From: a virus
IMG/VR virus record: IMGVR_UViG_3300023192_001873
Location: 1 to 24,717 of that record
DNA length: 24,717 bases
Reading direction: 5' to 3' (one strand)
The notes below the pieces were generated by a model that was not told where the DNA came from, did not search any database, and was given only the letters and a program-made list of their open reading frames with translations. Shown here in pieces: positions 2,941-14,921 of this stretch. Each line of letters opens with the position of its first letter. The first letter of the stretch is position 1. A program made the translations under genes and the position numbers.

Positions 2941-3576
2941 CTATATCTGGCCTGTTTTCGCTTTGAAGGCTAATTCGTCAATCTGCTTATCTGACATTTT
3001 AGAAACATCGGGAAAATCTCCTGATTCCATAGGTCTTCTTGAATGTCCACCCATAGAACTTCCTGCTGCTTCTTCATCAGCTTGAGCCTTCTTTTCTTTG
3101 AGTTCCTCTTTCTTAGCAGCCAATCCTAAGTAAATGAACTCAACTGACACCGCTTGATATACAGGATGCTCCATATATTTCCTTATCGTACTTTCCATTT
3201 CTTTTGCTCCCGGATAATCAGAGAATACTTTATTCAATTCTTGATCATCCGTCTGAGTACGAATCTTATCAAGCACAGGTTTCATCCCTCTCTGAACTTC
3301 CGTCTGTATATCATCGTTACCTTCAGGAGAAAATTCGTTATTTTTATATTCTGAATAATCATCATCATCTTCATCTCCGAATTTTTGCTCCTCTTCCTTT
3401 TTTTCTCTTTTTCCTCTCCGCTCTTGGATATATTCCTGAGCGCTTTTTCTCACCGGTGGCTCATCCGTTTCTGGTTGAGGCTCCGGATTTTCGGGTTCCC
3501 CTCCCGAACCTCCTTCGAGGTTTTTTCTTTCTTCCTCTATATCTTCCTCGGTAGGTATTTTTTCGGGGTCTGCCAT
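2941..3576 (-). CDS. Scaffold-like capsid assembly protein
   Basis: 211 residues from the ATG at 3576. A GTG at 3588 would add four residues, but the ATG reading MADPEK is the more normal start. The N-terminal half is extremely acidic and low in complexity (runs of Glu, Pro and Asp, including GDEDDDDYSEY). The C-terminal half is mainly charged helix, with AAKKEELKEKKAQADEEAAG and a closing KMSDKQIDELAFKAKTGQI. No enzyme motif is present. An acidic, helical protein immediately before the major capsid gene and after the portal is the standard place for an internal scaffold that directs prohead assembly and is then removed. Function is inferred from position and composition. Confidence 0.7.
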   Translation of the reverse strand: MADPEKIPTEEDIEEERKNLEGGSGGEPENPEPQPETDEPPVRKSAQEYIQERRGKREKKEEEQKFGDEDDDDYSEYKNNEFSPEGNDDIQTEVQRGMKPVLDKIRTQTDDQELNKVFSDYPGAKEMESTIRKYMEHPVYQAVSVEFIYLGLAAKKEELKEKKAQADEEAAGSSMGGHSRRPMESGDFPDVSKMSDKQIDELAFKAKTGQI

Positions 3577-3660
3577 AATTTTACACACCGCTCATAATCT
3601 CGTATGGCGAAACGATACTTGGCGGTGGACTTTATACGCGGCCCTCGACCAAAGAGCCGG

Positions 3661-4049: not shown

Positions 4050-4080
4050 ATTTTACCATAGTTTACGAAATTTGTGTCAA
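4050..4080 (-). promoter_or_regulatory. Sigma70-type promoter with extended -10
   Basis: On the minus strand there is a perfect TTGACA (4080-4075), a 19-nt spacer and TAAAAT (4055-4050), preceded by TATGG, which gives an extended -10. The -35 box contains the TGA stop of the portal gene. Transcription would begin about 7 nt downstream, just before the 93-aa gene. Confidence 0.55.
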
Positions 4081-6038
4081 GCTGCCGGAAGTAATTGTTG
4101 CGGTGATCTTCCTGCGGATTGTTTCTTACCTGTTTCCTGAGCGCGGGCTTTAGAACCAACAGGTTTAAATTCAGGAATTGCTTCGGGAGAAGGGAACAAT
4201 CCGGGATTCATTTTCTTAAACATCATCATTTTTTTATGAGTTTCTATATGAGCAAGTTTAGATGGAGTATCTGCTGCTTTATTATGTATCTCCATATGAA
4301 TTAAGTCATCATCAAGAGCATTTATCTTTGGAAGTTTATTATCGTTTAGTTGTTGATTTTCATCTTCAGACCTTAGTTCGTCAATAGTCGGTGGAAACAT
4401 CATCATTAATTCTTGATGTGTTCTCTGTAAAACCTTACCTAGTTTCCTGAAAACATATCTTCTATTTGTTTGTGGGTCCTGAATAACAATCTGAGCAAAT
4501 GTGGACAACTCCTGAAACTCTTTCTCTCTTCTTTGCGCTGCGTTTGTAGAAGACTCTACATATATATCAGGGTCTATTCTAGATATAAAATTATCTTTTG
4601 TTAGTTTTCTTTGAATAGCTGAAAGAGGACCCTGGAGTCTAAGAATCTTCTCGTCTATCTCTTCTTTGAAGTATTTTTTATAAAGCCAATACCATTGTCT
4701 CCAATATCGTTTCTCACTCCAACCGAATATACGTGCCGCTAATGAATGCCTTACATCTTTACTGGCTGATATTAACTGGGTTTCACCTAATGTTCTACTT
4801 TGTCTAGGTTGTACGCCCTGAGCTATCTCAGGAGCAGCTACGGCTTTCTGTGCGCCGACATCTAATATATTAAGTATTAAGTTGACTTGCTGATGAAATA
4901 AGGATTTTTGAAGAGGTACTGCTGCTTTTGTTGGGTCCCCTGCAACAGGTATGAATTTATTAAACTGGAAATCTAAATCTTTAGGATTTGTTATCTTCCT
5001 TTTATCGAAAATATACATCGGGTAAAGGTCCGCCTTTGCTGAATCAAACCCTAGATTAACCATAACTGCCCGGGCTCTTTGTTTATCTTCTATAAGGTCG
5101 GGGATTGATACTCCATCCCAATCGTGAGACATAGGGAATATAGTACGATCTATTACAGGCCATACTTCACTATCCAAGCGTTGGTATCTAACAATAATCT
5201 GTCTATTATTAGCAAGAGTTACAATATACTTCTTTCCTCTTATAGTTGTGAACCACTCCACTAGATTATAAGCATAGTTCATTCCTAACATTTCCTCAGC
5301 TTCTCTTGTGTGATTCTGCCCCTGTGCTTCTCTCCGGGCTTGCTTTGCTTGATCCGTCATATTCTTTAGGTCTTTATCCTTTTTGAGTTTAGCTATATTA
5401 AAGTATTTGGGATGATTCTTCATTTCCCATTTACTTAACTCAATCTCTCTACCGAAGAATCTAGCAGAACCATATCCCTTTTGATTGCCGTTGATTGATT
5501 TCGCTCTTGGGTCGCGAATAAATGTCATTGGGTCTATTATCTCTGATACCGGGACCATATTCTTTCTATCAAATTCATTTAGCATTATAAGTCCTCTACC
5601 AAAGAAGAGAGTGTCCCATATCCACTCATAGTCAGCTTCATCTTTCTGCATTAGTTCATAATCGTGTTGTGCCATACCGGTCAAGTTTTCTGCTATATCA
5701 TCATCACCTTCTTCTTTACCTCCGAACTCAACTGAAAGTTTATCGTCATATAATGCAGCAAGTACAGTTTGAAAAACACTAAATAAAAGCGAGTCCCCCA
5801 CTTTGTCGGGATCTCGCTTCTGATTGTTATAAAGTTTAAGTCGTTTAAGAGATTCCTTTCTCTTCTCTTGTACGTGGTCAAAAGAAAGAGTAAATTCTTT
5901 ATCTATCTGCTCTATTAGTTTTGCTTGCTCATCTTCACTTATAGGAGCCTCGTCTATAATATTTTTAGATTCTTCTGTATTCTTTATCTCTTCTTCTGTC
6001 ATTACCTCAGTATTTTTTACTTCGTTATTTATTGCCAC
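4077..6038 (-). CDS. Portal protein (large, podovirus/N4-type size)
   Basis: 653 residues. The portal is the dodecameric ring at one capsid vertex through which DNA is packaged and ejected; it binds TerL and nucleates the prohead. The N terminus is an acidic leader (residues 1-50). Then come FDHVQEKRKESLKRLKLYNN and SLLFSVFQTVLAALYDDKLS, typical early portal helices. Next are EWIWDTLFFGRGLIMLNEF and a 'IIDPMTFIRDPRAKS' strand pair. The central part contains LVEWFTTIRGKKYIVTLANN and the DWDGVSIPDLIEDKQRARAV block. A long helical C-terminal region holds DVGAQKAVAAPEIAQGV and RTLGETQLISASKDVRHSLA. The size and order match the large portals that accompany N4-gp56 capsids. It is preceded by a 61-nt gap and ends in the promoter for the 93-aa gene. 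Confidence 0.85.
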   Translation of the reverse strand: MAINNEVKNTEVMTEEEIKNTEESKNIIDEAPISEDEQAKLIEQIDKEFTLSFDHVQEKRKESLKRLKLYNNQKRDPDKVGDSLLFSVFQTVLAALYDDKLSVEFGGKEEGDDDIAENLTGMAQHDYELMQKDEADYEWIWDTLFFGRGLIMLNEFDRKNMVPVSEIIDPMTFIRDPRAKSINGNQKGYGSARFFGREIELSKWEMKNHPKYFNIAKLKKDKDLKNMTDQAKQARREAQGQNHTREAEEMLGMNYAYNLVEWFTTIRGKKYIVTLANNRQIIVRYQRLDSEVWPVIDRTIFPMSHDWDGVSIPDLIEDKQRARAVMVNLGFDSAKADLYPMYIFDKRKITNPKDLDFQFNKFIPVAGDPTKAAVPLQKSLFHQQVNLILNILDVGAQKAVAAPEIAQGVQPRQSRTLGETQLISASKDVRHSLAARIFGWSEKRYWRQWYWLYKKYFKEEIDEKILRLQGPLSAIQRKLTKDNFISRIDPDIYVESSTNAAQRREKEFQELSTFAQIVIQDPQTNRRYVFRKLGKVLQRTHQELMMMFPPTIDELRSEDENQQLNDNKLPKINALDDDLIHMEIHNKAADTPSKLAHIETHKKMMMFKKMNPGLFPSPEAIPEFKPVGSKARAQETGKKQSAGRSPQQLLPAA

Positions 6039-6099: not shown

Positions 6100-6327
6100 T
6101 TATATTATACCGACTTCTATGATTTCAAAATGCGCTTCTAGTTCTCCACCACTTACTTCGTGTATAGATTTTTGTTTTGTCTTAATAATAATTTCATATT
6201 CTCCACCTACCTTCCAATCTTTTATTTCAGGTAGATCAACTTCTCTAAAAGAAATCATAGGATATACCGGCTCAAGACTAATAGGTCCAATCTCTGTATC
6301 TTCGTTTATAGATTTTACTTTCCTCAT
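6100..6327 (-). CDS. Small beta-rich conserved phage protein
   Basis: 75 residues. The core LPEIKDWKVGGEYEIIIKTK followed by a hydrophilic turn and HFEIIEV forms a small beta-barrel-like pattern that recurs in short proteins upstream of portal genes. No function is known to me. It has no Cys pairs, signal or membrane segment. It lies 2 nt after the 83-aa gene and 61 nt before the portal, so it is probably translated from the same message. It may be a head or packaging accessory protein; that is inference from place only. Confidence 0.6.
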   Translation of the reverse strand: MRKVKSINEDTEIGPISLEPVYPMISFREVDLPEIKDWKVGGEYEIIIKTKQKSIHEVSGGELEAHFEIIEVGII

Positions 6328-6625: not shown

Positions 6626-8164
6626 TTAATCATATGGATCAAATGACCTTGCTTCCTTTATACCATAAGATGCTCCTTGTATGTTTGGTGGAGGTATGTA
6701 CACAGGTTCTTGTATGAGTAATCTTCCTAGACATTCTATCATATGGTCATCCTTATCCATTGGCTTCTCCTTGGGACTCTTTCTCTCTGCCGCTTTACCT
6801 CTCCAATCATCCCATTGGTAGTGTTCTATCTCCCATATGGTTCTCTTACAGGTATCGAAGATATAGAGTTCAGGTGCTACTACAATGTCTTTACCTCTAA
6901 CCTCGTAATCAAAAGCATCCTTAACGCGCCTGTCGGCTCTCTGGCGGTCTTTTGTGGCTTTCATATAGTCTAGTCCCAGTTCCCTTAGTTGTCCTGCTAA
7001 CATCTGACGTGAGGGGTCTATCTGGTGTTTATCTTCCACGAACGCCGCAGGGTCCGCCCAACGCCCCTCAATGCGGAATCTATCTGCCTTGTTATGTATC
7101 CTCCTAGCAAGTTCTGGTGTTTTGAACGTGCCATACAATTCATCGACAACGAAGAAGGTACCCATCCTATCAACTGCAAGCCATAGTACAGCATCAGGAT
7201 TACGTGGATGAGGATCTAATGCTTCAATCACGCAGTAATCTCTATGAGTGATATTAAAAGGACTTATCACGTGGACCTTAGGTTCGAAGTTCTTGAAGAC
7301 CATACCTGTAAGGTGTTGGAACTTCCCATAGATACGCGCCTGCTTATCCTCGTCATCGTACTCTTCTACCATCCGCATAATGTCTTTGTGATTCAGTATG
7401 CCTCTTATACCGTGATCCTTGCAGTTCGCTTCCACATCTGCCTGTATGTAATCTCGTTGGTCCGTATTCTCTCCCCTATAATTCAATATATGGTCATACA
7501 TCCACGCACTACCAGTAAGCGGCGTTGCTGTGATAAAGATTAGTCCTCCCATTCTCATACGAGCCACTGTTGCCTTGAAGATTGCAAGCGGTGGAGGTTC
7601 ATCAAACCAAGCGAATCCTAGAGTAGCACTCTCGAACTCTTTAGGGTCCTGCTCATATGTCATCAACTCAAACTTGAATCCTGTATCTGTTTCCCAGTTA
7701 TATTCATAGTTCTTCCCTGACTTAGCCGTTGTGTACCTGCCACGTGGGAACCATTTCTTGAGTTCTGGTATCATTACCTCTTGTATTGTAGTTGGATCCG
7801 ATACTACGCGGCCCATTTTCTCATACGGAAAGTTATTGAATATGGGGTAGTTAAACCAATCGTTTCCGCCCGGGCGATTACCAAAAAGGATATGCGCTAA
7901 CATTGCACTTCCTGCGGCAGTTTTACCAACTCCATTTGCGGCAGTAAGCAAAGAGATAAATGTACGGTCCTTTCCTACCATTTCAATGAACTCTGAAATC
8001 TTCCCATTAGGGACATAGAAAGATTGCGGATTCAGTAATTCTTTAACTGCCTTATTCCTTATCCGCGATCTCTCCTTCTTTTTCTGCAAGAGCCTTTTCT
8101 CTTCTTCTAATTGACTCCTCCGCATTTTCAATCTCTTCGTCTGTGAGGGTGTCTTTTGGGTCAT
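6626..8164 (-). CDS. terL: Terminase large subunit (packaging ATPase/nuclease)
   Basis: 512 residues. It cuts concatemeric DNA and drives it through the portal with ATP. The ATPase domain shows the Walker A motif AANGVGKT (75-82), the Walker B motif GFAWFDEPPP with D188/E189, and the coupling motif TATP (212-215). The RNase H-like nuclease domain begins with EALDPHPRNPDAV (D317 a probable metal ligand) and continues to a C-terminal DDHMIECLGRLL with further acidic residues. The first ~37 residues overlap the TerS gene in another frame by 113 nt. A second ATG at 8125 (reading MRRSQLEEEK), preceded by GAAGAG, would reduce the overlap to 74 nt and may be the true start. No start codon avoids the overlap without removing conserved sequence. 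Confidence 0.93.
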   Translation of the reverse strand: MTQKTPSQTKRLKMRRSQLEEEKRLLQKKKERSRIRNKAVKELLNPQSFYVPNGKISEFIEMVGKDRTFISLLTAANGVGKTAAGSAMLAHILFGNRPGGNDWFNYPIFNNFPYEKMGRVVSDPTTIQEVMIPELKKWFPRGRYTTAKSGKNYEYNWETDTGFKFELMTYEQDPKEFESATLGFAWFDEPPPLAIFKATVARMRMGGLIFITATPLTGSAWMYDHILNYRGENTDQRDYIQADVEANCKDHGIRGILNHKDIMRMVEEYDDEDKQARIYGKFQHLTGMVFKNFEPKVHVISPFNITHRDYCVIEALDPHPRNPDAVLWLAVDRMGTFFVVDELYGTFKTPELARRIHNKADRFRIEGRWADPAAFVEDKHQIDPSRQMLAGQLRELGLDYMKATKDRQRADRRVKDAFDYEVRGKDIVVAPELYIFDTCKRTIWEIEHYQWDDWRGKAAERKSPKEKPMDKDDHMIECLGRLLIQEPVYIPPPNIQGASYGIKEARSFDPYD

Positions 8165-10058: not shown

Positions 10059-10334
10059 TTATTGCGAATCACTGCTATCTGGTATTTTTTGGTAAGGTTC
10101 TTCAATCTTTACGGAAACACGTGCGCCGTTCTGAAAGCCTACTAATTTCAATATCAACTTGATTGAACTGGCGTGGACTCCTCGCTGACCCAGTACCAAT
10201 CCCATATCCTTTTTTGCTACCCATAAGCGTAAAAGTACTCCCATATCATCCACGCTCCTAATCGTTTTAACCTCTTCTGGATGATATACGATCGCTTTGA
10301 TGATTGTCTCAAGAACTTCTTGGTCTTGCCCCAT
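10059..10334 (-). CDS. KhpA-like KH-domain RNA-binding protein
   Basis: 91 residues. Almost the whole protein is a single small KH domain of the KhpA/YlqC (UPF0109) type: helix VLETIIKAIVYHPEEV, strands with VLLRLWVAKKDMGLVLG, the GxxG loop GQRG (49-52), helix VHASSIKLILKLVGF, and a final strand GARVSVKIEEP. The usual bacterial sequence at this loop is GKQG. In bacteria KhpA is 75-80 residues, binds RNA as a homodimer or with KhpB, and affects small-RNA and cell-division control. A phage copy could redirect host RNA binding or protect phage RNA; that is inference. It is the last gene of the leftward early region, 21 nt after the 54-aa gene. No Shine-Dalgarno sequence is evident. Confidence 0.8.
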   Translation of the reverse strand: MGQDQEVLETIIKAIVYHPEEVKTIRSVDDMGVLLRLWVAKKDMGLVLGQRGVHASSIKLILKLVGFQNGARVSVKIEEPYQKIPDSSDSQ

Positions 10335-10616: not shown

Positions 10617-10814
10617 TTAAATGTTATCGTAACTCTCTTCCTCTCTTTCTTTCTCTTCGTTTCTTTCGCGCTTCTTCTGTCGGCAAGGTTTACAACGCTT
10701 TGGATTATCTAGCCCTTGCTTATGAAAGAAGTCCTGTTCTCTTTCGCCAAACGCAAAATCACTATCGCAATCAAATTCTTTACACCTTATTTTTTGGGGT
10801 CCGCGTGATTGCAT
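10617..10814 (-). CDS. Zinc-ribbon protein, zf-trcl type
   Basis: 65 residues. The pattern KIRCKEFDCDSDFAFGEREQ followed by FFHKQGLDNPKRCKPCRQ is the short treble-clef zinc ribbon often seen in small bacterial and phage proteins ('Cx4-5C..dF.f...EQ.fy...g..nPkRC..C'). The four ligands would be C11, C16, C41 and C44. A very charged tail (KKRERNEEKEREEESYDNI) ends it. A separate open frame continues past the stop in the +1 frame, so the natural C terminus may differ. The start overlaps the end of RusA by 28 nt, so the two are probably translated together. It may bind DNA, RNA or protein; no partner can be named. Confidence 0.65.
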   Translation of the reverse strand: MQSRGPQKIRCKEFDCDSDFAFGEREQDFFHKQGLDNPKRCKPCRQKKRERNEEKEREEESYDNI

Positions 10815-11227
10815 TGGTATATTTTAATAGTACCATAAATACCGGCAATTTTATCTTGTTGCTCTACCGCGTGTACGAAAGAGCCATATACATTCTTATC
10901 ATCCACAAACAGCGAATCGCATACTCCCTTGAAAACATTATCGGGATCCGCGTGTCTCCCGTCTGCCCACGAAATATATAAACTCATAAACGCCTCCTCC
11001 CCTTTCGCTAGTTTTATCGGCTTACCTTGCTGTACTAGCAAGTCCGCCGCAAACTGTTTCTCTACCTTTTCTAGCGAGTTGATATAACAACCTCTAACGT
11101 ACTCTTTCCAGTTGGCGTACTTTACTGCTCTTGGGAGCCATAATCCTCGAACTGTTACTCTTGTGTATGCCAACGGATTGCCTTTTGGGTTTTCTTGATT
11201 GCCGGGGATTTCGAAAGATAATTCCAT
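10787..11227 (-). CDS. rusA: RusA-type Holliday junction resolvase
   Basis: 146 residues, slightly longer than E. coli RusA (about 120). RusA is a dimeric metal-dependent endonuclease that cuts four-way junctions made during recombination and replication, which helps produce packageable DNA. The signature is RHADPDNVFKGVCDSLFVDD (91-110): D94 and D96 with N97 form the metal-binding DxDN, K100 is the conserved lysine, and D104 and D109/D110 complete the acidic set. The N-terminal KGNPLAYTRVTVRGLWLP matches the usual substrate-binding start. The ATG lies inside the upstream zinc-finger reading frame, next to a run of six A. The neighbouring recombination ATPase makes a role in recombination-dependent replication likely. 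Confidence 0.9.
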   Translation of the reverse strand: MELSFEIPGNQENPKGNPLAYTRVTVRGLWLPRAVKYANWKEYVRGCYINSLEKVEKQFAADLLVQQGKPIKLAKGEEAFMSLYISWADGRHADPDNVFKGVCDSLFVDDKNVYGSFVHAVEQQDKIAGIYGTIKIYQCNHADPKK

Positions 11228-11675: not shown

Positions 11676-11864
11676 TTATTCAGGGGCCCACCCTACTCCC
11701 CAATTTTCATCCACGTGTTGTCCGCGCCATTTCTTTATAAGGTCCCTCAATACTGCCATACAAGAAATACACATACCTACTGTAGTTGACTCCTTTGGTG
11801 CTACCCTGTCGAGCTCAAAAAAATAAAGAACGTGTAGCCCACAAAACAAACAGCATTTACCCAT
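11676..11864 (-). CDS. 62-aa zinc-ribbon-like protein
   Basis: 62 residues. CCLFC (4-8) and CISC (32-35) form a four-cysteine zinc ribbon. A short helix VLRDLIKKWRGQHVDE and a Trp-rich end (NWGVGWAPE) follow. It has a strong Shine-Dalgarno sequence (GGAGG, 7-8 nt before the ATG). The structured RNA element at 11884-12034 ends only 20 nt upstream of its ATG, so this gene is the most likely target of any control by that element. No known family. Confidence 0.65.
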   Translation of the reverse strand: MGKCCLFCGLHVLYFFELDRVAPKESTTVGMCISCMAVLRDLIKKWRGQHVDENWGVGWAPE

Positions 11865-11883
11865 TATACTTCCTCCGTTGTTT

Positions 11884-12034
11884 AAGTGCTCTCGGCTAGG
11901 GGCGTGAAGAGTAATTTGGGAAATATGAGAAACCCGCTAGGGCTCTCCACACTCCTCTCAAAATAAGTATGGGCATCACCATAACCTTATCTCGAGATCA
12001 AATAGCCACATAAAATCCCTAGCCGAAAACACTT
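11884..12034 (-). ncRNA. Structured leader RNA with two competing pairings
   Basis: The 180-nt gap between the 92-aa and 62-aa genes is closed by a long stem on the minus strand: AAGTG (12034-12030) with CACTT (11888-11884), and TCGGCTAGGG (12026-12017) with CCCTAGCCGA (11901-11892), a 15-bp pairing with one 3x3 internal loop. Inside are TATGG/CCATA, the palindrome ATCTCGAGAT, and a stem with a one-base bulge capped by TAGC (11947-11927). CCCTAGC in that inner stem can pair with the same GCTAGGG that closes the long stem, so two folds exclude each other. An extended -10 promoter sits just upstream and the Shine-Dalgarno sequence of the 62-aa gene just downstream. This suits a cis-acting switch or a small RNA. 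It matches no riboswitch class I know. Confidence 0.6.
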
Positions 12035-12043
12035 ATCCTTATT

Positions 12044-12322
12044 TTATTGTAGCATATGCCCACATTCTTGGTTCCTTTCGTGCCACTCGTTATACTTACA
12101 CTTCCATTCGCCTCGCTTTACCCTCTCTACCTCTTCATATTCCGCTCCTGTTACAAGCCGGGAAATAGAAAAGGTCATAACAATACTTTCGCCAATCTCA
12201 ATATATTTCACATCGTTACGAATCGCCTCCTTTACCAACTCCGCTTCCTCTTTATTGAGAAAGAACTTAGAGCGGTCCGATAAAACAAGAACGTAGTTCT
12301 TTGTACTTAGTGCTTTATTCAT
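12044..12322 (-). CDS. Conserved hypothetical phage protein (92 aa)
   Basis: 92 residues. NYVLVLSDRSKFFLNKEEAE is a strand followed by a helix; then VKYIEIGESIVMTFSISRLV, and a C-terminal CKYNEWHERNQECGHM that could hold one metal through Cys and His. The first two thirds look like a small alpha/beta fold common in phages beside replication genes, but I know no function. Its ATG overlaps the replication gene stop as ATGA, so the two are translationally coupled. Its last codons hold the extended -10 promoter of the leader RNA. Confidence 0.6.
   Translation of the reverse strand: MNKALSTKNYVLVLSDRSKFFLNKEEAELVKEAIRNDVKYIEIGESIVMTFSISRLVTGAEYEEVERVKRGEWKCKYNEWHERNQECGHMLQ
12046..12057 (-). promoter_or_regulatory. 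Extended -10 promoter of the leader RNA
   Basis: Minus strand TATGC-TACAAT matches the extended -10 pattern (TRTGN-TATAAT) except one base. The -35 region is poor, as is allowed for extended -10 promoters. The predicted start is near 12039, five nucleotides before the structured element begins at 12034. Confidence 0.5.
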
Positions 12323-13125
12323 CTTATTTTTATTCCTTTCATAGCCGAACTTCCATTTTCTTTCTTGTAGTAAATAACAAGTTCTGCCAACTTCTCTTTT
12401 AATTGATAAGGCGTAGTTATTGTTGGTGCGTACTTTTTCCCTTGTACCGATACCGCATATTCAGCTGATCGGATTGCTTTTTCTTCCCCTAGTTTATCTA
12501 TAAGTTCTTGCGCTGCTTTCCGGGAAGTTTTGTTTCCCCAAGAGATTGTAGGATTTAAGTTCTGGTAGAATATATCGAAGATTTTATGTATTGGTTCTGC
12601 GAAGATATTTTCCACAGCGCGAACGCGCTGTTTCTTCTTAATATGTTCTTCTTTAAGTGTTCTTCTTATACTATGTCTTTCAGCCTGTATCTTACTGTTC
12701 TTCTGGCCTGTATCTCGTGTTCTTTCAGCCTGTATCTTTTTAGAAGATACTGCTCTTTTGGTCGGTATCTTCAAGGTTAGATTCTCAATCTTCTCATAAT
12801 TCAATATATTAAGTTTCCAAATGTCCGTAATAGAATATGTATTTATTGGTCTTGTTTTTCCTGCGCTCATTCCCATAAATTTTATCCAACCCTTATCCAA
12901 AAGATACTTCAAGGATTTATTATAAGCCTTTCGTCCGATGCCCATTTTCTTCATTACGGTTTCTTGTGTAGCAAAGCACGTGCCGTTTTCCCCGGAATAT
13001 CTTTTCATTTGCCAGTAGAGAGATTGGTCGATAGCCGTAGAGTGATTGAGAATATAGTGCGGCAGTTGAGAGAAGTATTTTTTATCTCCCGAGCCGTCCA
13101 CAATTTTTAGTTTATTGTCTTTCAT
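12319..13125 (-). CDS. Replication initiator with winged helix-turn-helix
   Basis: 268 residues. The N-terminal domain (about 15-100) is a winged helix: LPHYILNHSTAIDQSLYWQM, then TCFATQETVMKKMGIGRKAY as the recognition region, then SLKYLLDKGWIKFMG, the organisation of phage O-type and replisome-organiser proteins. A basic, Gln-rich linker (about 125-170) follows. The C-terminal domain (about 175-260) contains ISWGNKTSRKAAQELIDKLG and APTITTPYQLKEKLAELVIY, a short helical domain common in such proteins that would recruit helicase or loader. The linker is encoded by iteron-like DNA repeats, as in lambda O. It overlaps the 92-aa gene by 4 nt and is preceded by a large hairpin and a possible -10 box. 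No helicase or polymerase is seen here, so it may use host enzymes. Confidence 0.7.
   Translation of the reverse strand: MKDNKLKIVDGSGDKKYFSQLPHYILNHSTAIDQSLYWQMKRYSGENGTCFATQETVMKKMGIGRKAYNKSLKYLLDKGWIKFMGMSAGKTRPINTYSITDIWKLNILNYEKIENLTLKIPTKRAVSSKKIQAERTRDTGQKNSKIQAERHSIRRTLKEEHIKKKQRVRAVENIFAEPIHKIFDIFYQNLNPTISWGNKTSRKAAQELIDKLGEEKAIRSAEYAVSVQGKKYAPTITTPYQLKEKLAELVIYYKKENGSSAMKGIKIR
12676..12771. repeat. Iteron-like repeats inside the initiator gene (possible origin)
   Basis: Three copies of a GCCTGTATCT core sit at 12681-12693, 12704-12716 and 12726-12738, spaced 23 and 22 bp, about two helical turns. The first and third share 18 identical nucleotides. A weaker fourth copy, GGTCGGTATCTT, is at 12760-12771. 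The first and third are read as KIQAER in the protein, but the middle copy is read in a different frame (DTGQK). The similarity is therefore at the DNA level. This is the layout of the lambda origin inside gene O. Confidence 0.6.
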
Positions 13126-13144
13126 ATTTACTAAGCTAATTATT

Positions 13145-13221
13145 ATTATATCTTCAGCTCTCCATTTCGGCTACCCATTACGCTCTCGCGATAATGGTAA
13201 TTGAGTAGCCGAATCGAGAGC
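13145..13221 (-). promoter_or_regulatory. Large hairpin and possible -10 before the initiator gene
   Basis: In the 102-nt gap, GCTCTC (13157-13162) pairs with GAGAGC (13216-13221), TTCGGCTAC (13166-13174) with GTAGCCGAA (13205-13213), and CCATTA (13175-13180) with TAATGG (13192-13197). On the minus strand a perfect TATAAT (13150-13145) follows at once, with a poor -35 that would fall in the stem. It may be an operator or a structured leader. The TCGGCTA core is shared with the leader RNA at 11884-12034. Confidence 0.45.
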
Positions 13222-13227
13222 CAACTA

Positions 13228-13676: not shown

Positions 13677-14648
13677 CTAATTCCCTGGAACTTTTACTCT
13701 TGGCTCTGCTTTTTTGAAGCGTGCGACTTTGAGCGGAGTTCTTACATTGGGTAGAGGATCTGATTCAACAACAGGTATAGAGTCGTTCTTATGGTCCTCT
13801 ATGTGCTTAGAGCGTAGCGTTTCCGACATTTGTCCAATGTAGGCACTCATTTCAGAAATAGTCAGCTCCTGCGCTGATTTTCCAATCTGCTCCTCCAAAA
13901 ACTTTAGGGACCTGCCAACCTGTTTCAGCATAGCTTTCAACTCCTTAAACTTCTCTTCGTGTTCATCGATTCCCTCGTCTGCCCAACTCCTTAATGCTTT
14001 TCCTGTTTCCTCCGTTATTATAAATTCCGCCTTATCCATAAACAGGCTTGTTCTGTCTTTGCCTGTGCTTGCGAGGTGGTGTATATCTATGTCGAACGCG
14101 ATTGTCATTTCGTACTCAAAGCCCTCTCTTATTACTGGTTTCAGCCCTAGTTTCTCTACTCTTATCTTTCCGTCCGCGCCGGATTCCATCGCATAATCCT
14201 GTTTTGAACGCATAGCGCAAATCATATGGGCCCTATTCTGCAGAATTGCATTAATGAATTTCCGATAGCGTGGCGTTGCCTTTCCCCAATCCTGAAATTT
14301 TCCTCCCATTCGGTCCACAATTTCAAGAGTTCCTCCCTCTCCCTCCCAAACGTGTGTTACGGAGTCCACAATAATCACTTCCATATTTGCCGCCTCCGCC
14401 GAACGTATAGCCTCGACATACTTCTCTGGCTCAAATGGTGGGTCAAGCTCAATGACATTGTATGCTCCCAAATGTGCGTAGAGGTCCCCTGAATGATTCT
14501 CCGTATCAATCAAGGCAATCTTATCCCAAGGGGCTATACCTGATGCCATAAGGAGCGCGGAGTATGTTTTACCCGATCCCGAGGGACCGGCAAGTCCTAT
14601 GCGCAACCTCGCTTTTTTCCTGTCTGCCTTTCTAAGTTCAAATGCCAT
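13677..14648 (-). CDS. RecA-like ATPase, Sak4-type recombination protein
   Basis: 323 residues from the ATG at 14648 (MAFELRKADR); an in-frame ATG at 14696 would add 16 residues that overlap the 30-aa gene. Walker A is GPSGSGKT (21-28), Walker B is VIIVDS (91-96), and DTENHSGDLY and RSKQDYAMES are typical of phage AAA_24/Sak4 ATPases. Sak4 proteins are short RecA-like proteins that bind single-stranded DNA and promote annealing, usually with a phage SSB. After about residue 230 a helical and disordered tail (EEKFKELKAMLKQVGRSLKF) extends beyond the usual length of about 230-250, perhaps for partner binding. It would work with RusA in recombination-dependent replication. No SSB gene is recognised in the window. 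Confidence 0.8.
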   Translation of the reverse strand: MAFELRKADRKKARLRIGLAGPSGSGKTYSALLMASGIAPWDKIALIDTENHSGDLYAHLGAYNVIELDPPFEPEKYVEAIRSAEAANMEVIIVDSVTHVWEGEGGTLEIVDRMGGKFQDWGKATPRYRKFINAILQNRAHMICAMRSKQDYAMESGADGKIRVEKLGLKPVIREGFEYEMTIAFDIDIHHLASTGKDRTSLFMDKAEFIITEETGKALRSWADEGIDEHEEKFKELKAMLKQVGRSLKFLEEQIGKSAQELTISEMSAYIGQMSETLRSKHIEDHKNDSIPVVESDPLPNVRTPLKVARFKKAEPRVKVPGN

Positions 14649-14650
14649 AC

Positions 14651-14743
14651 TTATTGTATCGCAATCCATATCGCAAATATGACTACTAGGAGGCATACAA
14701 ACGTAATGGCCGATACTAAATTACTTATTATTTCTTTTCTCAA
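14651..14743 (-). CDS. 30-aa membrane peptide, candidate
   Basis: 30 residues from a TTG start, LRKEIISNLVSAITFVCLLV then a hydrophobic end in AIWIAIQ. Nearly all of it is one transmembrane helix. The stop lies 2 nt before the ATG of the recombination ATPase, and the promoter at 14784-14814 lies just upstream. There is no ATG and no Shine-Dalgarno sequence, so it may be chance, though the hydrophobicity is striking. Confidence 0.35.
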   Translation of the reverse strand: MRKEIISNLVSAITFVCLLVVIFAIWIAIQ

Positions 14744-14783
14744 AGTATTACTTGTGATTAATTTCTGCGACCTTTATATATAT

Positions 14784-14814
14784 ATTATCGCATAAAGTGC
14801 CCATACCCTGTCAA
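14784..14814 (-). promoter_or_regulatory. Sigma70-type promoter of the replication/recombination region
   Basis: Minus strand: a perfect TTGACA (14814-14809), a 19-nt spacer and GATAAT (14789-14784), preceded by TATGC, an extended -10. The same layout (TTGACA, 19 nt, TATGN before the -10) occurs at 4050-4080. It lies directly after the terminator at 14874-14906 and the tRNA-like element, so it starts a new transcription unit. Confidence 0.6.
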
Positions 14815-14817
14815 CTA

Positions 14818-14864
14818 TTGGCTCTAGTAGCCAATATAAGGGGGTTCGATTCCCCTTGGGGTCC
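14818..14864 (+). other. tRNA-like 3' half (possible attachment site)
   Basis: On the plus strand: TTGGC (14818-14822), a 7-nt loop TCTAGTA, GCCAA (14830-14834), a 5-nt variable region TATAA, then a T arm GGGGG-TTCGATT-CCCCT (14840-14856) and TGGGGTC plus C. All spacings match a standard tRNA from position 27 on. The loop has C where a tRNA needs U33, and no proper D arm or matching acceptor strand precedes it; the sequence there is a promoter on the other strand. A phage attachment site copied from a tRNA 3' half or a decayed tRNA would look like this. Confidence 0.5.
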
Positions 14865-14873
14865 CCTAATCAC

Positions 14874-14906
14874 AAAAAACCCGCGCGGAGGAAGCGCGGG
14901 TTTTTT
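14874..14906. terminator. Strong bidirectional intrinsic terminator
   Basis: CCCGCGC (14880-14886) pairs with GCGCGGG (14894-14900) around a 7-nt loop, flanked by six A on the left and six T on the right, so it works on both strands. It ends the leftward transcript of the polyvalent protein and membrane cassette 16 nt after the last stop codon. Confidence 0.9.
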
Positions 14907-14921
14907 GTTATCCGGTTGTTT

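Follow-up and report, generated by a model that had tools for sequence, protein, structure and literature searches.

The DNA examined, positions 1-24,717 (24.7 kb) of IMG/VR record IMGVR_UViG_3300023192_001873 and hereafter the window, carries its genes on the minus strand almost throughout. The capsid, scaffold-like and portal-like genes were named by position and conservation, with no library match, and neither the 62-aa nor the 92-aa ORF matched a Pfam or PHROG family. A tRNA/tmRNA search of the window returned none. The genes referred to below are:

1954-2913, minus: capsid
2941-3588, minus: scaffold-like
4077-6038, minus: portal-like
6626-8164, minus: terminase
10059-10334, minus: KhpA-like KH-domain RNA-binding protein, conserved ahead of the terminase gene in many relatives
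10787-11227, minus: RusA-like
11676-11864, minus: 62-aa CxxC..CxxC (zinc-ribbon-like) ORF, start at 11864, downstream of the element
12044-12322, minus: 92-aa ORF of no known family, upstream of the element
12319-13125, minus: DnaD-like initiator
13677-14696, minus: Sak4-like AAA
15791-24709, minus: methyltransferase/helicase giant

The element under study sits in the 179-nt same-strand gap with the 92-aa gene on one side and the 62-aa CxxC gene on the other. Its parts, and the signals that flank it, are:

11883-12035, minus: whole structured RNA element (153 nt), minimum free energy -69.2 kcal/mol, z -6.57
12017-12035, minus: 5' arm of the 19-bp closing stem, including GCTAGGG at 12023-12017 (inverted repeat I3; fold)
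11956-11997, minus: inner hairpin HP1, 12+5 bp (fold)
11920-11955, minus: inner hairpin HP2, 9+6 bp, including the first CCCTAGC at 11942-11936 (fold)
11939-11936, minus: HP2 loop TAGC (fold)
11883-11901, minus: 3' arm of the closing stem, including the second CCCTAGC at 11901-11895 (inverted repeat I3; fold)
11871-11876, minus: Shine-Dalgarno GGAGGA of the zinc-ribbon gene (sequence)
12046-12054, minus: extended -10 like box TGCTACAAT, candidate promoter, overlapping the end of the 92-aa gene (motif match)

The closing stem pairs 12035-12017 with 11901-11883 over 19 bp, two G-U pairs among them. It was recovered independently as an inverted repeat and has a pairing probability of 0.99. The 115 nt that it encloses fold into an inner junction helix and the two long hairpins HP1 and HP2. 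Shuffled sequences reached a mean of only -43.5 kcal/mol, none of 200 being as good as the element, which ranks first among all 160-nt windows on both strands of the 24.7 kb. An earlier note on this DNA had placed a structured RNA immediately ahead of the zinc-ribbon gene, a claim that is strongly supported. It had described a 15-bp closing stem around about 115 nt; the stem and its interior were recovered, but the length was 19 bp. The TAGC-capped inner stem that it reported corresponds to HP2, and the Shine-Dalgarno sequence that it saw directly after the element is indeed there, ahead of the 62-aa ORF. Small ORFs inside the element (28 aa at 11982-11896 and 11 aa from 12011) are too short to judge.

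On the minus strand, the helices contain 11 G-U pairs versus one A-C mismatch, and the fold reaches -67.3 kcal/mol compared with -48.8 kcal/mol on the plus strand, making the minus strand 18 kcal/mol more stable. These pair counts and this strand gap predict that the element acts as RNA and that the selected molecule is its minus strand, which has the sense of the flanking genes. As in an RNase III processing site of the T7 R-site type, the duplex is formed by coding-strand RNA. It is also an extended intramolecular duplex in an untranslated gap, with a 19-bp stem and hairpins of 17 and 15 bp, where such sites have about 20 bp or more.

Scans with tblastn confirmation found no homologue of the 92-aa, 62-aa or DnaD-like proteins in viral contigs. 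The stem, searched as a DNA pattern in three parts, had no match elsewhere, a distant blastn of the DNA against phage records returned nothing, and the element is single copy in the genome. The search with the AAA protein reached only genomes that are otherwise unrelated (L002, L003). Relatives were reached via the terminase and the capsid, and their early regions were then compared; these are mosaic and have little in common with the window.

Long hairpins nevertheless recur between the genes of these relatives. We surveyed same-strand gaps of 60-350 nt in 26 pieces of relatives and the window, with 20 shuffles each; the pieces overlap slightly and the gaps were chosen with a simple ORF caller. 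The helix was longer than in all 20 shuffles in 32 of the 131 gaps, where 6.2 were expected, and averaged 13.4 bp against 9.9 bp after shuffling. Among helices of at least 16 bp, 36/41 were more stable on the coding strand. The hairpins of the relatives span 16-32 bp and are unrelated in sequence, and the window itself has five same-strand gaps with helices of at least 16 bp. An early gap of relative L004 holds an element of 145 nt, closed by a 24-bp stem and unrelated in sequence, that ends about 20 nt before a start codon; further long hairpins lie in other gaps of this genome. The slot before the scaffold gene also often holds a long hairpin, whose sequence differs by subgroup. The same script, run on annotated genes with the minimum gap lowered slightly to 55 nt, flagged 4/17 gaps in T7 and 0/14 in lambda. 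Three of the four flagged T7 gaps lie at R1.3, R3.8 and R13. Some of the recurrent helices may be terminators, tRNAs (L105 6106-6173) or other RNAs. In the window, the hairpins at 858-917 (gap 847-1003) and 14869-14911 (gap 14697-14921) are near-symmetric and strong on both strands, and are probably terminators.

A second long intergenic hairpin of the window lies 28 nt before the DnaD-like gene:

13126-13227, minus: 19-bp hairpin, z -5.98

We propose that it is of the same kind as the element at 11883-12035. Together with the gap survey, it provides several sites per message with unrelated sequence, as is usual for RNase III sites of the T7 R-site type. The two hairpins have the 8-mers TTCGGCTA and TGGAGAGC in common, and at least one shared 8-mer occurs in 19% of shuffles. 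TTCGGCTA is found five times in the window (12020, 12342, 13166, 13206 and 17171) versus 0.76 expected, a count reached in 0/100 shuffles.

We tentatively favour, at a little under an even chance, the explanation that the element is an RNase-III-type processing or insulating hairpin of a polycistronic mRNA, placed just before the ribosome site of the zinc-ribbon gene. It builds on observed features: how the element folds, on which strand and where, a ribosome site that is just as accessible as without it, and long hairpins of unrelated sequence that recur in same-strand gaps of this phage and its relatives. The duplexes are formed on the coding strand, differ in sequence and lie at gene borders, which fits a function that reads double-strandedness, either processing by an enzyme of the RNase III type or a barrier to decay between adjacent messages; a constant place with a varying sequence fits a duplex recognised as a duplex. 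The element would fold constitutively as double-stranded 'punctuation' in the polycistronic early mRNA. Its 19-bp stem and two inner hairpins would together form an extensive duplex that could be cut by a double-strand-specific host RNase (RNase III type); alternatively, the duplex may block 3'-5' decay and so separate the messages on either side. The outcome would be a zinc-ribbon/small-protein message whose structured 5' end is fixed about 20 nt before the start codon. From these features we infer a processing role, whether cutting by RNase III or of another kind, and any influence on expression. Two elaborate inner hairpins exceed the needs of a plain RNase III site, which speaks against this explanation. 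It is doubtful, though conceivable, that the element belongs to a system of long, sequence-free, structure-conserved RNA duplexes which this phage group places at chosen gene borders (early genes, scaffold/capsid). Their reader would then not be ordinary RNase III but some phage or host factor, possibly the conserved KhpA-like KH protein, that times or balances expression. If cutting were shown, T7-style long-hairpin mRNA punctuation would extend to widespread uncultured phages known from metagenomes, and a class of 'mystery' intergenic structures in these phages would be explained.

The earlier note had read the element as a bistable RNA, a switch or small RNA of unknown class that controls the small genes. 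GCTAGGG (12023-12017) does complement CCCTAGC at both 11942-11936 and 11901-11895, as had been pointed out, and a metabolite or ion riboswitch or attenuator could toggle between the two GCUAGGG/CCCUAGC pairings. When the folding of growing transcripts was followed, the alternative pairing was the minimum for 5' fragments of about 105-115 nt, which would suit such a switch; in longer nascent RNA, HP2 and then the closing stem displace it. In the full RNA, however, the forced alternative reaches -51.7 versus -69.2 kcal/mol, a penalty of 17.5 kcal/mol, and with the closing stem paired almost always and the alternative confined to those prefixes, we rejected bistability on energy: two folds of comparable energy do not exist in the full RNA. 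By chance, a 7-mer is shared in this way in 3% of shuffled inner sequences, a point set against the switch. No intrinsic terminator was found 3' of the closing stem, and the Shine-Dalgarno sequence is not sequestered (accessibility 0.58 with the element and 0.57 without it). The expression platform of a riboswitch, terminator or hidden ribosome site, is thus absent from the element, as are both of the outputs usual for riboswitches and attenuators. The proposed Rfam search gave no match at the gathering score and no plausible aptamer even at E<=10. A toggling switch consequently appears improbable, no positive evidence speaks for control by an unknown class of switch or sRNA, and the result removes a false riboswitch candidate. 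Our second choice, behind the processing or insulating hairpin and in itself unlikely, is a structured 5' leader driven by a promoter of its own: transcription would start near 12040-12036, and the 5'-terminal stem would shield a short mRNA from 5'-dependent decay without cutting. The box TGCTACAAT lies where the earlier note had put an extended -10, ending 11 nt ahead of the stem, and a start about 7 nt beyond it would leave no more than a few nt between the 5' end and the stem. As a promoter it is possible, but the evidence is weak because the window holds 30 equally good extended -10 matches on both strands, about one per 1.6 kb of strand. In addition, no sigma-70 promoter pair was found within the 800-bp region, and the long hairpins of the relatives are found in every kind of gap.

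The same box could instead drive a separate phage small RNA, released by processing, that acts either in trans or on an RNA-binding protein, of phage or host origin, such as the KhpA-like KH protein (10059-10334). The compact, very stable fold, the candidate promoter and the conserved KH gene nearby would agree with this, but the 3' end is without a terminator and the element is not found in relatives that carry the KH gene, so we give it little weight. Least probable of all is a role as DNA, be it as a cruciform, as a piece of a replication origin or as what is left of an inverted-repeat mobile element. The element does have 19-nt inverted ends, and near it is the DnaD-like initiator gene, within which four 18-nt iteron-like direct repeats lie at 12676-12771 (spacing 23, 22 and 33) and encode KIQAER-like repeats. 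Against this, the excess of G-U pairs over A-C mismatches is an RNA signature, a GC-skew turn is absent, the element is a single genomic copy whose stem pattern is unmatched elsewhere, and the iterons are 640 bp distant. As a replication origin the element was rejected, given the missing skew turn and the placement of the repeats in the initiator gene; it is these repeats that probably form the origin, as in lambda O.

Other structured RNAs came up in the relatives. Related contigs, at least 18 of them, carry the GGCUUUGGC capsid-leader RNA ahead of the scaffold gene and about 0.9-1.05 kb 5' of the capsid gene (L025 9018-9118, L026 2571-2664, L030 8983-9070, L037 9021-9117, L046 6013-6153; also L038, L044, L047, L055, L059, L074, L116, L121, L126, L127, L128, L129 and L139). 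It has a 24-30-bp closing stem, a hairpin whose loop reads GGGCUUUGGC(G/A)AUUUCC, the invariant loop being GGGCUUUGGCRAUUUCC, and then a second hairpin. Across nine members, 98.1% of cells pair and ten pairs are changed on both sides; 0/500 shuffles match this RNA in percentage paired, in double changes or in covariation score, and slid controls are 36-44% paired. It has no Rfam match and is apparently undescribed so far. Its two covariance models, R1 and R2, found no match in the window, so membership of the element in this family was rejected. The capsid-leader RNA is a more promising lead than the element.

A small hairpin directly before the scaffold start is present in the window (3586-3627, minus) and in ten relatives. 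Its outer stem, read from the alignment by eye, shows compensatory changes (CACCGC/GCGGTG, CATCGC/GCGATG, CGCTAC/GTAGCG and CACGAC/GTCGTG, among others), and its loop TTCG(C/G)CA is mostly conserved; it is possibly a translational operator of the scaffold/capsid genes. In L105, which is the same phage as L032, the slot before the scaffold gene is occupied by a tRNA (6106-6173, minus; Rfam match) whose acceptor stem is lengthened by many extra base pairs. The acceptor stem is likewise extended in a tRNA-like sequence at L017 245-370, which adjoins a tRNA at 373-459. Inserts of 0.5-0.8 kb, possibly introns or inteins, split terminase and capsid genes in relatives (L008 1510-2153 and 6943-7644, L009 3539-4047, L006 8140-8960).

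Among known systems, riboswitches and attenuators in Rfam resemble the element in being structured leaders upstream of a small gene, but the element is without an aptamer match, a terminator, ribosome-site sequestration or bistability of the full RNA. Structured 5' leaders and stem-loops of the ompA type stabilise mRNA; they share with the element a stable stem near a possible 5' end and a free ribosome site, whereas for the element the promoter and the 5' end are candidates only. The GGCUUUGGC capsid-leader RNA has the same architecture of a long closing stem (24-30 bp) around one or more hairpins, intergenic and on the coding strand, and differs in its invariant loop, its strong covariation and its position before the scaffold gene. 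RNase III processes T7 early mRNA at early sites (PMC4858673, PMC8708148). Compared with the T7 sites (R0.3-R1.3, R1.1 type), the element, a putative cleavage site, is larger (153 nt, with a 19-bp stem and two inner hairpins). The T7 sites and the hairpins described here are alike in being long intergenic hairpins of the coding strand, several per polycistronic message (PMC4858673, PMC8708148), that lie near the next ribosome site, are not conserved in sequence between sites and are similarly enriched by the same script.
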